NCBI RefSeq assembly: GCF_038595065.1
Contig: NZ_CP152003.1
Coordinates: forward strand, 2,894,001 to 2,958,000
Direction of reading: 5' to 3'
From: Sutcliffiella sp. FSL R7-0096
Lineage (GTDB): Bacteria; Bacillota; Bacilli; Bacillales; Bacillaceae_I
DNA length: 64,000 bases
Every line of letters starts with the position of its first letter. Position 1 is the first letter of the stretch. Shown here piece by piece: positions 1,703-20,554 of this stretch. The translations under genes and the position numbers were made by a program. The notes below the pieces were generated by a model. That model searched no databases. It saw only the letters and a list, made by a program, of their open reading frames with translations, and was not told where the DNA came from.

Positions 1703-1713
1703 TAGCCCTCCTC

Positions 1714-1848
1714 CTATATGATTGATACAGCATGATTTGGAAATCTTAAAGCAATGGAAGCACCTGAAGAGAAAATCACTTCGAAGGAAATTGTGAACGG
1801 TTTCTCATCGTTTTGAGCAAGAAATAATTCATATGTAAAATATTTCAC
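1714..1848 (-). CDS. Small hypothetical protein, 44 aa
   Basis: A 44-codon frame starts with GTG behind GGGGAAGAGAAA and runs to 11 nt before the 47-aa membrane protein. The product begins MKYFTYELFLAQND and alternates hydrophobic and polar residues (FTISFEVIF, SIALRF), suggesting a small beta-strand protein. No family recognised. It could be a translated leader for the next gene. Confidence 0.45.
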   Translation of the reverse strand: MKYFTYELFLAQNDEKPFTISFEVIFSSGASIALRFPNHAVSII

Positions 1849-15785: not shown

Positions 15786-16017
15786 GTCTTAAATCCCCTT
15801 TTATTTTGCCGAGCTGTTTTATGTATATTTTACCATATAAATTATCTTGGATTCATTCTCAATCGATGAATATATGTCACACCACAAAAATTCCCATTGG
15901 GAAAATAAAGGTTTATTTCTTGTATAATTTCAATCTTTTATTCTGAATTTTCCCAATATAAATTCTTTCTTTAATATGCTAAATTATTCTTGTGTTACCA
16001 ATTGAGAGGAGATGAGC

Positions 16018-17955
16018 ATGAGGATGAAGAAAAAGGGTCAATCAAAGAAAGTGTTTTTATCCGTTTTATCAGCAGCAACCATTCTATCCACTGTTGCGCT
16101 AAGCAGTCCATCAACAGGGGGAGCCAGCAACTTTGAACTAGATTTCAAGGGAGTCAGCCAGATAACAGAGACGAAGGCAGTTTCCAAGAGTGGTAAAACT
16201 GGTGAAGCTTCTTTTCTAGCAAATACAGAGAATGTTAAAATTCCAAAAGGCCTGCAAAAAAAGCTAGAAGTCGTACCGAAAGATAATAGTCTTTATATTG
16301 TACAGTTTGATGGTCCCATTTTAGAAGAAACAAAAAAAGAACTGGAGTCTACTGGGGCAACAATTGTAGATTACATACCTGACTATGCATACATTGTGGA
16401 ATACAAGGGTGATGTTGCAAAGGCCACTAACGGTATCGCTCATTTAGAATCTGTAGAGCCCTACCTTCCCCTTTATAAGGTCGACCCACTATTATTCACT
16501 AAAGGCGCTTCTGCTTTAGTAAAGGCCGTTGCACTTGATGCTAAACAAAATAATAAAGAAATCACTTTCAAAGGCATAGAAGAAATTGTCGAATATGCTG
16601 CCAACCATAACGTTCTATATATCTCCCCAAAACCGGAATATAAGGTGATGAATGATGTAGCGAGAGGAATTGTTAAAGCAGACGTAGCACAAAACAGTTA
16701 TGGATTATACGGACAAGGCCAAGTGGTTGCAGTTGCCGATACAGGTCTTGATACTGGTCGCAACGACAGCTCGATGCATGAAGCTTTCCGCGGAAAAATT
16801 ACAGCTTTATACGCATTAGGAAGATCCAATAATTCCAACGACCCGAACGGTCATGGTACACACGTTGCCGGATCTGTACTTGGAAACGGGGCAACCAATA
16901 AAGGAATGGCACCGCAGGCAAATCTTGTATTCCAATCCATCATGGATAGCAGCGGCGGATTGGGAGGCCTTCCATCCAACCTGAGCACATTGTTTAGTCA
17001 AGCTTACACTGCCGGGGCCCGAATTCACACCAACTCCTGGGGTGCTGCGGTAAATGGCGCTTACACAACAGATTCCAGAAACGTTGATGACTATGTTCGT
17101 AAAAATGATATGGCTGTTCTTTTCGCAGCTGGGAATGAAGGACCTAATAGTGGCACCATCAGTGCACCGGGTACTGCGAAAAATGCCATTACAGTTGGAG
17201 CAACAGAAAATTATCGTCCAAGCTTTGGGTCTTATGCAGACAATATCAATCATGTTGCACAGTTCTCTTCACGCGGACCTACTCGTGACGGTCGAATCAA
17301 GCCGGACGTAATGGCGCCAGGAACCTTTATTTTATCAGCACGCTCTTCCCTTGCACCAGATTCTTCCTTCTGGGCAAATCATGACAGTAAATATGCGTAC
17401 ATGGGCGGAACTTCCATGGCAACACCGATTGTTGCAGGAAACGTGGCACAATTACGTGAGCACTTTATCAAAAACAGAGGCATCACACCTAAGCCGTCCT
17501 TATTGAAGGCTGCTCTTATTGCTGGTGCCACTGATGTGGGTCTTGGATTCCCGAACGGCAACCAAGGTTGGGGACGTGTGACATTGGATAAGTCTTTAAA
17601 CACTGCATTTGTGAATGAGACAAGCTCCCTGTCTACAAGCCAAAAAGCGACGTATTCCTTCAATGCAACTGCAGGCAAGCCACTTAAGATCTCTCTAGTA
17701 TGGTCTGATGCTCCTGCAAGCACATCCGCTTCTATAACATTAGTAAACGACCTTGACTTGGTGATTACCGCTCCAAACGGAACGAAATATGTTGGAAACG
17801 ACTTTACTGCACCATTTGATAACAACTGGGATGGCCGTAACAATGTGGAGAATGTGTTTATCAATGCTCCACAAAGTGGAACATATACGGTAGAGGTTCA
17901 GGCATATAATGTTCCTCAAGGTCCACAGGCGTTTTCTTTGGCGATTGTGAACTGA
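16018..17955 (+). CDS. KP-43-like alkaline subtilase (S8) preproprotein
   Basis: The start is set at the ATG with good spacing to GAGAGGAG (645 residues). Signal peptide to about residue 35, then a propeptide of about 175 residues. Mature NDVARGIVKAD starts near residue 212, leaving 434 residues. The triad is Asp241 (VADTG), His279 (GHGTH) and Ser466 (GGTSMATP), i.e. D30, H68 and S255 of the mature chain, the numbering of KP-43. A C-terminal beta-sandwich (PLKISLVWSDAP onward, about 110 residues) is also as in KP-43. Expected secreted, alkaline and oxidant-tolerant protease. Monocistronic with its own terminator. Confidence 0.93.
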   Translation: MRMKKKGQSKKVFLSVLSAATILSTVALSSPSTGGASNFELDFKGVSQITETKAVSKSGKTGEASFLANTENVKIPKGLQKKLEVVPKDNSLYIVQFDGPILEETKKELESTGATIVDYIPDYAYIVEYKGDVAKATNGIAHLESVEPYLPLYKVDPLLFTKGASALVKAVALDAKQNNKEITFKGIEEIVEYAANHNVLYISPKPEYKVMNDVARGIVKADVAQNSYGLYGQGQVVAVADTGLDTGRNDSSMHEAFRGKITALYALGRSNNSNDPNGHGTHVAGSVLGNGATNKGMAPQANLVFQSIMDSSGGLGGLPSNLSTLFSQAYTAGARIHTNSWGAAVNGAYTTDSRNVDDYVRKNDMAVLFAAGNEGPNSGTISAPGTAKNAITVGATENYRPSFGSYADNINHVAQFSSRGPTRDGRIKPDVMAPGTFILSARSSLAPDSSFWANHDSKYAYMGGTSMATPIVAGNVAQLREHFIKNRGITPKPSLLKAALIAGATDVGLGFPNGNQGWGRVTLDKSLNTAFVNETSSLSTSQKATYSFNATAGKPLKISLVWSDAPASTSASITLVNDLDLVITAPNGTKYVGNDFTAPFDNNWDGRNNVENVFINAPQSGTYTVEVQAYNVPQGPQAFSLAIVN

Positions 17956-18020: not shown

Positions 18021-18043
18021 GGGAGTATTTTGTTTTTTTAAAT

Positions 18044-18261
18044 AATCCCGGCACTTGATTGGCTAATCCCTTCACAAATAGAGGGAATCCCTTCACAACT
18101 GACCGTTTATTGGGCTCACATTTTAACGTGAGGATAACCCCGATGAAAATCCCTGCACAAGGATGGGAAATCGCTGCATAACTCCGTGTAATCCCTTCAT
18201 AATACCAAAAACTCCCGGCATAACGGTGAGTTATCCCGTCACAAGAGCAACCTCTTCATAA
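18044..18261. repeat. Phased repeat array, family 1 (AATCCCTTCACAA, 21 bp period)
   Basis: Thirteen-base units close to AATCCC(T/G)(T/G)CA(C/T)AA start at 18044, 18065, 18086, 18148, 18169, 18190, 18211, 18232 and 18249. Six of eight steps are exactly 21 bp; one is 62 and the last 17. The eight-base spacers differ. The array fills most of the gap between the convergent subtilase and lipoprotein genes, where no gene is seen. Confidence 0.8.
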
Positions 18262-18331: not shown

Positions 18332-18478
18332 CTATTCCTCGTTCGTTTCACCAGTATTCGTTTCATTCTGTTCCATGTTTGTTTCGTTATTGTTCATTTC
18401 TTCATTATCAGCCGCGCATCCAGTGGCAAGAGCTAGTAATAGTACGGAAGATGATAATGCCAAGAACCATTTTTTCAT
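18332..18478 (-). CDS. Small lipoprotein, 48 aa
   Basis: The ATG behind CAGGGAGGAAG starts a 48-residue product with a lipoprotein signal (KKWFLALSSSVLLL) and lipobox LATGC. The mature part is about 28 residues, almost only Asn, Glu, Thr and Met. A longer upstream frame lacks a ribosome site. Likely an outer-leaflet lipopeptide; function unknown. On the same strand as the MutS2-type gene, 145 nt downstream. Confidence 0.7.
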   Translation of the reverse strand: MKKWFLALSSSVLLLALATGCAADNEEMNNNETNMEQNETNTGETNEE

Positions 18479-18622: not shown

Positions 18623-20554
18623 TCAGTTGTCCGACTCTTCCAAAATCACCTCATCCACATGATGCTTTTTCATCTTATTCCGGAGTTTCCGATTTTCCTT
18701 GGATTCAAACACAATATCCATGTCGTAACCATCCGTGTATAGATCTTCTGCTTTAATATAAAGAGATAGTCGCTTATGGTTGAAGGTCTCTATCCGTCCT
18801 TTTACCATAACCTCCACATCCCCCTTTTCATCTGCTGGCTTATAAACGATACCGAACTCCCCAATAGAGGCAATCTCTACATTGTCCCCCTTCTTAAAAA
18901 TGATTTCCTGTTTTGTCTTCTCTTTTTCCGGATGCTTCATCTTTCTGACATACTTACGATTCATTGCTAGTTGCCTTTCGAGTTCATGCCTTGGTCTATC
19001 CGTTTTTCCACTGTAATCTTTTGATTCTTTATAGGTTATTTCATGTGCTCTTTCTATTAACTTAGGGTGCATGCCTAGACGCAAAGCGATGGCAAATGCC
19101 TGACTGTCCCCTCCTTTTCCAACGATAAGGCGGTACGTTGGTTTTAGGGTGCTCAAATCAAATTCCATCGAGCCGTTGCAGAAGCCCTCACGCTCATTTG
19201 CGAATTCCTTGATTTCACTGTAGTGGGTCGTGGCAAGCATCGTCGTTCCCTTATTATATAGTTCTTCTAAGATGGAGGTGGCGAGCCCCATCCCTTCCGC
19301 TGGATCTGTGCCGGAACCTAACTCATCCAAGAGTACTAGCGTTTGCGGGGTGGATTCAGCCAAGATTTCAATGATATTTTTCACCCTGGAAGAGAACGTA
19401 CTCAATGACTGTTCGATGCTCTGCCCGTCGCCGATGTCCACCAGCACTTTGTGAAAGATGGCAATCTCGCTTCCTTGTTCAGCAGGGATATGCATACCAC
19501 ACTGAGCCATTACCGTCAGGAGACCCACCGTTTTTATCGTGACTGTTTTTCCTCCAGTGTTCGGGCCTGTGATAACAAGTGCATCGTAGTCCTCACCTAT
19601 GATCAGATTTAAAGGGACAGCGTTTTTTCCAAGTAAGGGATGTCTCGCACCGGCTAATCGTATGACATGATGCTCATTTATCTGAGGTGACGTTCCCATT
19701 AACATTAAGCTGTGCTTCGCCTTTGCAAAAATAACGTCATAACTGACCATCAAATCCATCGCCAGTTTGATTTCTTTTTCATGCTCTTGTACCAAACCAG
19801 TCAGCATAAAAAGAATCTGCTCCTCTTCGGCCTCTTCCTGATACTTCAGCATACTGATGGAATCTTGCATGATACTGATTTCTTCCGGCTCCATGAACAC
19901 GGTGGATCCTGAAGCAGATATATCCAGCACAGCACCCTTTATATTATTTTTATATTCCTTTTTAACAGGGACAACATATCTGCCATTTCTAGTACTAAAT
20001 AGACTCTCCTGAAGATATTTACTGTATTTGCTCGACTTGACCAATTGCTCGATACGGTTTTTAATTCGTTCCTCCAAAGTGGAAATCTGCTTTCTGACCT
20101 TCAGCAGCTCCTTGCTTGCGTAATCGTCCACCCTCCCGTTTCGAATGCAACGGATGATTTCTTCCGCCACATGAGAAAGCTCCACAACGGAATACATATA
20201 GCTTGTGATGACAGGTGCTGCAGATTCTTTGTCTTTCATAAACCTCTTCAGTTTTTCAATTGTATCCAGGAATTCGTATAGTCCTATCATCTGATCTGGC
20301 CTGAATGCAATTCCTTTATGGAGATTTTTTAAAATATACTCAATGCCTTGAAGTCCATGAATTGGCACGCTTGAACTAATTGAGAGTATCTTCTTCCCTT
20401 CTGTGACTTCATTTAACCAAGCTTCAATCTGTCTTTTATTCATGGATGGTTCCAATGCCATTACTGCTTTTTTCCCTGGTTCAGAAATAGCAAGGTATGC
20501 CACATCTTTCTTCAAATCTGTAAATTGTAATGCTTGAATAGTTTCGTTATTCAC
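18623..20554 (-). CDS. MutS2-type ATPase without the Smr domain
   Basis: The 643-residue protein has the MutS2 core and clamp helices (about 1-300) and the MutS ATPase domain: Walker A GPNTGGKTVT, Walker B LVLLDELGSGTDP, His-switch ATTHYSEIKEF. Full MutS2 (MutSB) has about 780 residues with a C-terminal Smr nuclease domain; here the chain stops about 85 residues after the KGDNVEIASIGEFG strand region with no Smr motif. It is probably a second, short paralogue acting on branched DNA or stalled ribosomes (inference from MutS2). The start is GTG behind CTAGGAGG. Confidence 0.85.
   Translation of the reverse strand: MNNETIQALQFTDLKKDVAYLAISEPGKKAVMALEPSMNKRQIEAWLNEVTEGKKILSISSSVPIHGLQGIEYILKNLHKGIAFRPDQMIGLYEFLDTIEKLKRFMKDKESAAPVITSYMYSVVELSHVAEEIIRCIRNGRVDDYASKELLKVRKQISTLEERIKNRIEQLVKSSKYSKYLQESLFSTRNGRYVVPVKKEYKNNIKGAVLDISASGSTVFMEPEEISIMQDSISMLKYQEEAEEEQILFMLTGLVQEHEKEIKLAMDLMVSYDVIFAKAKHSLMLMGTSPQINEHHVIRLAGARHPLLGKNAVPLNLIIGEDYDALVITGPNTGGKTVTIKTVGLLTVMAQCGMHIPAEQGSEIAIFHKVLVDIGDGQSIEQSLSTFSSRVKNIIEILAESTPQTLVLLDELGSGTDPAEGMGLATSILEELYNKGTTMLATTHYSEIKEFANEREGFCNGSMEFDLSTLKPTYRLIVGKGGDSQAFAIALRLGMHPKLIERAHEITYKESKDYSGKTDRPRHELERQLAMNRKYVRKMKHPEKEKTKQEIIFKKGDNVEIASIGEFGIVYKPADEKGDVEVMVKGRIETFNHKRLSLYIKAEDLYTDGYDMDIVFESKENRKLRNKMKKHHVDEVILEESDN

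Follow-up and report, generated by a model that had tools for sequence, protein, structure and literature searches.

Iteron-type plasmid centromeres (ParR/parC and TubR/tubC) consist of two clusters of direct repeats around a unit-free centre, on which a small DNA-binding protein assembles cooperatively. The ends of Tn7/Mu/Tn5053-type elements also carry direct sites, these being for the transposase; the sites are spaced about 20–22 bp apart and their words start with TGT. In Bacillus, constant-length repeats of 20–21 nt and of 52 nt have been described that are species-specific in sequence and contain conserved short signals (Subirana and Messeguer 2021, PMC8161180). According to the parts of that paper considered here, the 20–21-nt repeats are intergenic and non-coding, form several families per genome, and are of unknown function, with a polymerising nucleoid protein or a small RNA being suggested for them. 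B. horikoshii is listed for the 52-nt family (Table 1 of PMC8161180), and the 52-nt consensus units of B. oceanisediminis and B. alkalitelluris hold GTCCGAA or TGTCTGAA together with the inverted word TTCGGAC(A).

The array considered here lies in a window of 64,000 nucleotides (contig positions 2,894,001–2,958,000) from the source genome G000, a Sutcliffiella of the horikoshii group. An initial annotation had described nine phased units with six steps of 21 bp and spacers free to vary. Eight good 13-bp units lie on the lattice (Table 1): six steps are exactly 21 bp, as described, and the one remaining step is 62 bp. The proposed ninth unit, AACCTCTTCATAA at about 18249, is off the lattice, however, and matches a conserved flank in relatives. 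The spacers inside the array are indeed dissimilar to each other. The unit-free centre contains a short inverted repeat, CTCAC..GTGAG, which is not general among copies elsewhere.

Table 1. The array and its surroundings, in window positions.
Feature	Position	Strand	Basis
Left neighbour, S8 subtilisin-like peptidase gene, 647 aa, convergent	16012..17955	+	ORF list; family from translation reading
Segment swapped for about 34 bp (congeners G006, G008) or a family 2 array (others)	18021..18257	+	Alignment gaps between same-site flanking matches
Left block, three 13-bp units (starts 18044, 18065, 18086; exact 21-bp steps)	18044..18098	+	Sequence and lattice scan
Unit-free centre; unit 3 to unit 4 step of 62 bp (about six helical turns)	18099..18147	.	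62/63-bp step shared by ten locus families
Right block, five 13-bp units (starts 18148, 18169, 18190, 18211, 18232; exact 21-bp steps)	18148..18244	+	Sequence and lattice scan
Right neighbour, small lipoprotein-like ORF, stop at 18332	18332..18478	-	ORF list; name from translation reading
MutS2-like gene, beyond the lipoprotein-like ORF	18623–20554		Name from translation reading

A scan of the window found a single 21-bp lattice carrying all eight units, and 200 dinucleotide-preserving shuffles reached a maximum of three; the pattern that the initial annotation proposed to check against shuffled sequence is thus not reproduced by chance arrangement. When stacked 9-mers at period 21 were sought without reference to a motif, the array ranked first, scoring 6.03 against 4.64 for the runner-up. 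With its dominant 21-bp steps, it has the length of the 20–21-nt class of PMC8161180 as there described. Membership of that class also involves at least four copies recovered by standard finders, and the array is unlisted by Tandem Repeats Finder at a minimum score of 30, this being the detector applied. No 52-nt lattice was found within the window.

The array is one copy of a dispersed element, here called family 1, and is real rather than a decayed tandem repeat. The initial annotation did not see this dispersal, nor the constant layout of the element, nor that a different array fills the same gap elsewhere. The family 1 unit is a 13-bp word, AATCCC[G/T]TCA[C/T]AA, and the element comprises a block of three units spaced 21 bp apart and, after a single step of 62 or 63 bp, a block of five with the same spacing, covering about 202 bp in total. 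This split layout is found in around 30 elements belonging to ten locus families with unrelated flanks, and steps outside the gap are 21 bp, bar a few. Spacers are about 32% identical across locus families, and the unit-free centre has no sequence common to them. Outside the unit, certain positions show a weak preference for particular bases.

Within the source genome, the unit pair with an 8-bp spacer occurs at five places, with 26 pair matches against one for a reversed control. Recognisable copies number five in the source genome and roughly seven to 16 in each of three close relatives, as counted by pattern searches allowing up to three mismatches, which decayed copies may escape. Similar arrays, which the initial annotation had suggested seeking in relatives, are therefore present. 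Three of 15 congeners carry the family 1 unit pair, and these were taken as S. horikoshii DSM 8719, B. horikoshii FJAT-14233, and S. horikoshii biET1; the word AATCCCKTCAYAA is confined to the S. horikoshii group. When 84,980 species genomes were searched for exact matches, family 1 pairs were recovered in this group and otherwise only as two lone clostridial matches, which lie in coding sequence and were rejected as coincidences. In G003, one locus (L063, 2033–2970) holds the element three times in tandem with a 362-bp period, and another (L065) holds two in tandem. At L053, some 200 bp separate a family 1 element from a SAM riboswitch (1712–1832, minus strand) that precedes a methionine-pathway gene.

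Comparison between orthologues shows that the units are constrained. The 11 core unit positions differ by 10.5%, the spacers by 31%, and the centre by 39%, with a bias towards conserved units arising from the collection of copies via the motif; for the core-to-spacer contrast, Fisher p = 3e-18 with one orthologue pair per locus. Variable unit positions 7 and 11 differ by 33%, i.e., at the spacer rate, and thus constraint tracks single positions, as would be expected from a pattern of protein contacts rather than from repeat homogenisation. Much the same contrast is seen in a second family described below, in which units at the glmM–glmS site differ by 3.7% and spacers by 24.4% across six aligned species. 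At the window locus, the contrast between units and spacers is small (0.114 versus 0.125 for the pair listed), and G000 holds decayed copies, so that the station in the window may be losing its function.

These data bear on the view that the lattice is merely the memory of a functionless 21-bp tandem array whose spacers have diverged further than its units. Some copies have clearly decayed (L054 and L057 in family 1; L193–L195 in family 2), and the weak preferences outside the unit could be read as remnants of such an array. Under neutral decay, however, there would be no reason for one set of 11 out of 21 positions to be preserved at locus after locus, nor for the unit numbers and the unit-free gap to stay constant across unrelated loci, which makes this explanation very improbable.

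The second family was first met in the purH–purD gap of G010, as another 21-bp array with the word TGTCCGAA. Its unit is WTGTCCGAA, and in its layout eight units follow one another at 21 bp, often with one step of 22 bp, before a step of 31–32 bp and two more units at 21 bp. Steps of 21 bp were counted 266 times, steps of 22 bp 32 times, and steps of 31 or 32 bp 37 times, with few others. Family 2 spacers retain a position-specific consensus. The word TGTCCGAA at 21-bp spacing is present in ten of the 16 genomes of the genus, including the source genome, which has around 24 family 2 arrays. In several species the inner units read TTGACCGAA or TTGGCCGAA, with the end units retaining TGTCC, and complete family 2 elements stand in tandem, 323 bp from start to start, at L219 (G011) and L220 (G006).

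Arrays of G010 carry TTGTCCGAA in a layout of five units, a 62–63-bp step, and three units, which is the family 1 layout seen from the other strand with a different word; L260 and L267 are complete, and L261, L262, L266, and L268 are partial but consistent. The purH–purD array of the same genome departs from this layout. Across 299 genomes sampled at the level of the order, TGTCCGAA pairs occur in 24 (11 genera), several of these being single matches that possibly arose by chance. G160, a distant genome in this sample, has abundant pairs, and its arrays include a 19-bp step. Many species in the sample are without such arrays, and thus their role is not essential in general. In the glmM–glmS gap of G012, a lone array (L152, 2983–3098) repeats a third word, ATTTTGCCACTT, at steps of about 21 bp; no second array was found in the genus with up to two mismatches, and the third unit considered in G012, TTTTGCCACTT, came down to one array and was dropped.

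The word of family 2 is also that of the 52-nt repeats reported in the portions of PMC8161180 considered, the constant length of which equals about five helical turns; those repeats, however, are inverted word pairs with a period of 52 nt, whereas the Sutcliffiella arrays advance in 21-bp steps. Like the 20–21-nt class described there, the arrays combine species-specific sequence with a conserved word (AATCCCKTCAYAA or TGTCCGAA). They differ from that class in their split form, where unit number and unit-free gap are both fixed, in being too degenerate for tandem-repeat finders, and in showing both word-specific constraint between orthologues and an exchange of families at the same site.

This exchange was seen at all four sites compared, including that of the window, each of which holds family 1 in some species and family 2 in others. 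The window gap contains family 1 in G000, G003, G004, and G009, complete family 2 arrays in G005, G011, and G014, and a shortened one in G007; in G013, a family 2 array starts before the contig diverges, and the short replacement in G006 and G008 is that of Table 1. Between glmM and glmS, family 1 is present in G003 and G004 and family 2 in seven species. The gap between two acyl-CoA dehydrogenase genes holds family 1 in G003, family 2 in G000, G004, G007, G009, and G014, and about 30–35 bp in G006 and G008. The purH–purD site is occupied by family 1 in G003 and G004 and by the TGTCCGAA array in G010.

Since arrays fill only a few dozen intergenic gaps per genome, the sharing of four sites out of four is, by informal estimate, a strong departure from independent random placement. 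The orientation of family 1 and family 2 units agrees at two of the four sites and disagrees at the other two; the idea that a single element gave rise to both families through mutation of its unit at the site is thus unsupported, as is replacement in place. The parts of PMC8161180 examined describe neither the fixed split architecture nor the constraint test nor the exchange of families at one site (other papers may do so); relative to them, the architecture and the same-site swap of words appear to be new. At the purH–purD site, G000, G009, and several congeners (L110, L112–L115, L117, and L118) carry another kind of dispersed repeat, GAGACTCCGGCGGGAGGTAGCGGTAGACTTGAGACCCCACAGCG...GCGGAAAGCGAACACCTGGAACG, some 150 nt long, in the gap that holds phased arrays or almost nothing in other species. 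A sequence resembling this repeat is also present near the array of L001.

We regard it as somewhat probable that each array serves as a station at which a sequence-specific DNA-binding protein docks at multiple sites; we infer this protein, its cooperativity, and its role from the arrangement and conservation of the units. B-DNA has 10.5 bp per turn, and steps of 21 bp (two turns), 22 bp, 31–32 bp (three turns), and 62–63 bp (six turns) all lie close to multiples of this value, the exception being the 19-bp step in G160. Near-whole-turn spacing places the units on one face of the DNA, so that cooperative binding would be possible. Each 13-bp unit could be read by one protomer or dimer, and cooperative binding along the shared face would then generate a short complex of fixed length, with the unit-free centre either looped out or serving as the seat of a second factor. 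The initial annotation had likewise suggested a protein on one DNA face, or an array under selection; the split architecture at many loci, the unit-specific constraint, and the near-whole-turn steps lend support to both, albeit the protein itself is deduced rather than observed. Its placement of the array between convergent genes is correct for the window but is not a feature of the class, as other copies occur where the flanking genes diverge or run the same way.

Units run along or opposite to the adjacent genes with about equal frequency. This independence of gene orientation, together with the many intergenic stations per chromosome, favours a role at the DNA level, likely in chromosome organisation, segregation, or a system of self-recognition, over control of single genes. 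The recognised word would turn over fast between species, with sites being kept or re-used. It is conceivable, though we hold this with more doubt than conviction, that Bacillota chromosomes bear discrete nucleoprotein stations of fixed geometry, each with a constant count of sites on one face of the DNA and a single fixed gap, and that sister species keep the positions but exchange the recognition word. Such stations would be a bacterial equivalent of fast-evolving, centromere-like satellites whose binding protein evolves along with them. Should the word indeed switch while the sites stay, bacteria would here provide an uncommon example of a DNA-binding protein that co-evolves rapidly with numerous sites on the chromosome. 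The geometry, word, contact positions, and presence/absence species pairs open the function of the constant-length Bacillus repeats to direct experiment.

The main rival to docking stations is a non-autonomous mobile or selfish repeat, spread by copying, for which a recombinase or transposase acting in trans would bind the units, and with a preference for certain intergenic positions; unit conservation would then reflect competence for copying rather than service to the host. It owes this standing to the dispersed and polymorphic copies, with empty sites in close relatives, and to the family 2 spacer consensus, which suggests copying from a common ancestor; whole elements are, in addition, tandemly duplicated in G003. 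Yet the roughly 32% identity between spacers of copies within one genome argues against recent amplification, and the empty sites examined show neither terminal inverted repeats nor target duplications. The one candidate binding-protein family tested, the TnsB/TniA-type PF09299, has a distribution across 24 genomes that does not follow the arrays: it is present in nine, including array-free G015, and missing from array-bearing G003, G004, G009, G013, G014, and G160. We therefore consider a mobile repeat unlikely, and the more specific notion of TnsB/TniA transposon-end sites was rejected on this distribution.

The likeness to Tn7/Mu/Tn5053-type ends is limited to direct sites about 20–22 bp apart and words beginning with TGT; Sutcliffiella units, by contrast, all share one orientation with no opposed end, and PF09299 proteins, taken as the mark of a cognate TnsB/TniA/MuA-type transposase, are absent from several array-bearing genomes among the 24 surveyed. 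With ParR/parC and TubR/tubC, the arrays share two clusters of short direct repeats around a unit-free centre, but they differ in being chromosomal, in having many copies per genome, and in their period. Adjacent genes for an adaptor and a filament-forming NTPase were not found among the ORFs flanking family 1, which, on reading of their translations, are metabolic or housekeeping genes.

Another possibility is that the arrays are transcribed and act as RNA, for example as a sponge for an RNA-binding protein or as a source of small RNA. Transcription is possible for some copies, namely those set between genes that run the same way, and such roles are considered for the 52-nt repeats in the portions of PMC8161180 seen here. 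There is no strand preference relative to neighbouring genes, however, and no sign of a conserved fold or known RNA family: RNAalifold energy is 0 on both strands, single-sequence z-scores are near zero, and the element has no Rfam match. An RNA function is accordingly quite improbable. A protein-coding heptad repeat was also rejected, as steps of 22, 31, 32, and 62 break the frame; no open frame runs through the array, and the ORF list contains no ORF of at least 80 aa spanning it in the window.

The window element has no match in phage and plasmid collections, and no family 1 pair was found in viral contigs. Family 2 pairs in viral contigs are mostly beside lambda-type integrase genes at 10–11-bp spacing, or lone, and were judged unrelated. 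At lambda-type prophage ends (viral contigs L283–L350, e.g., L311, 612–641), TGTCCGAA occurs three times at this spacing beside the integrase gene. These copies are perhaps arm-type integrase sites, and the word that they share with family 2 is probably a coincidence.
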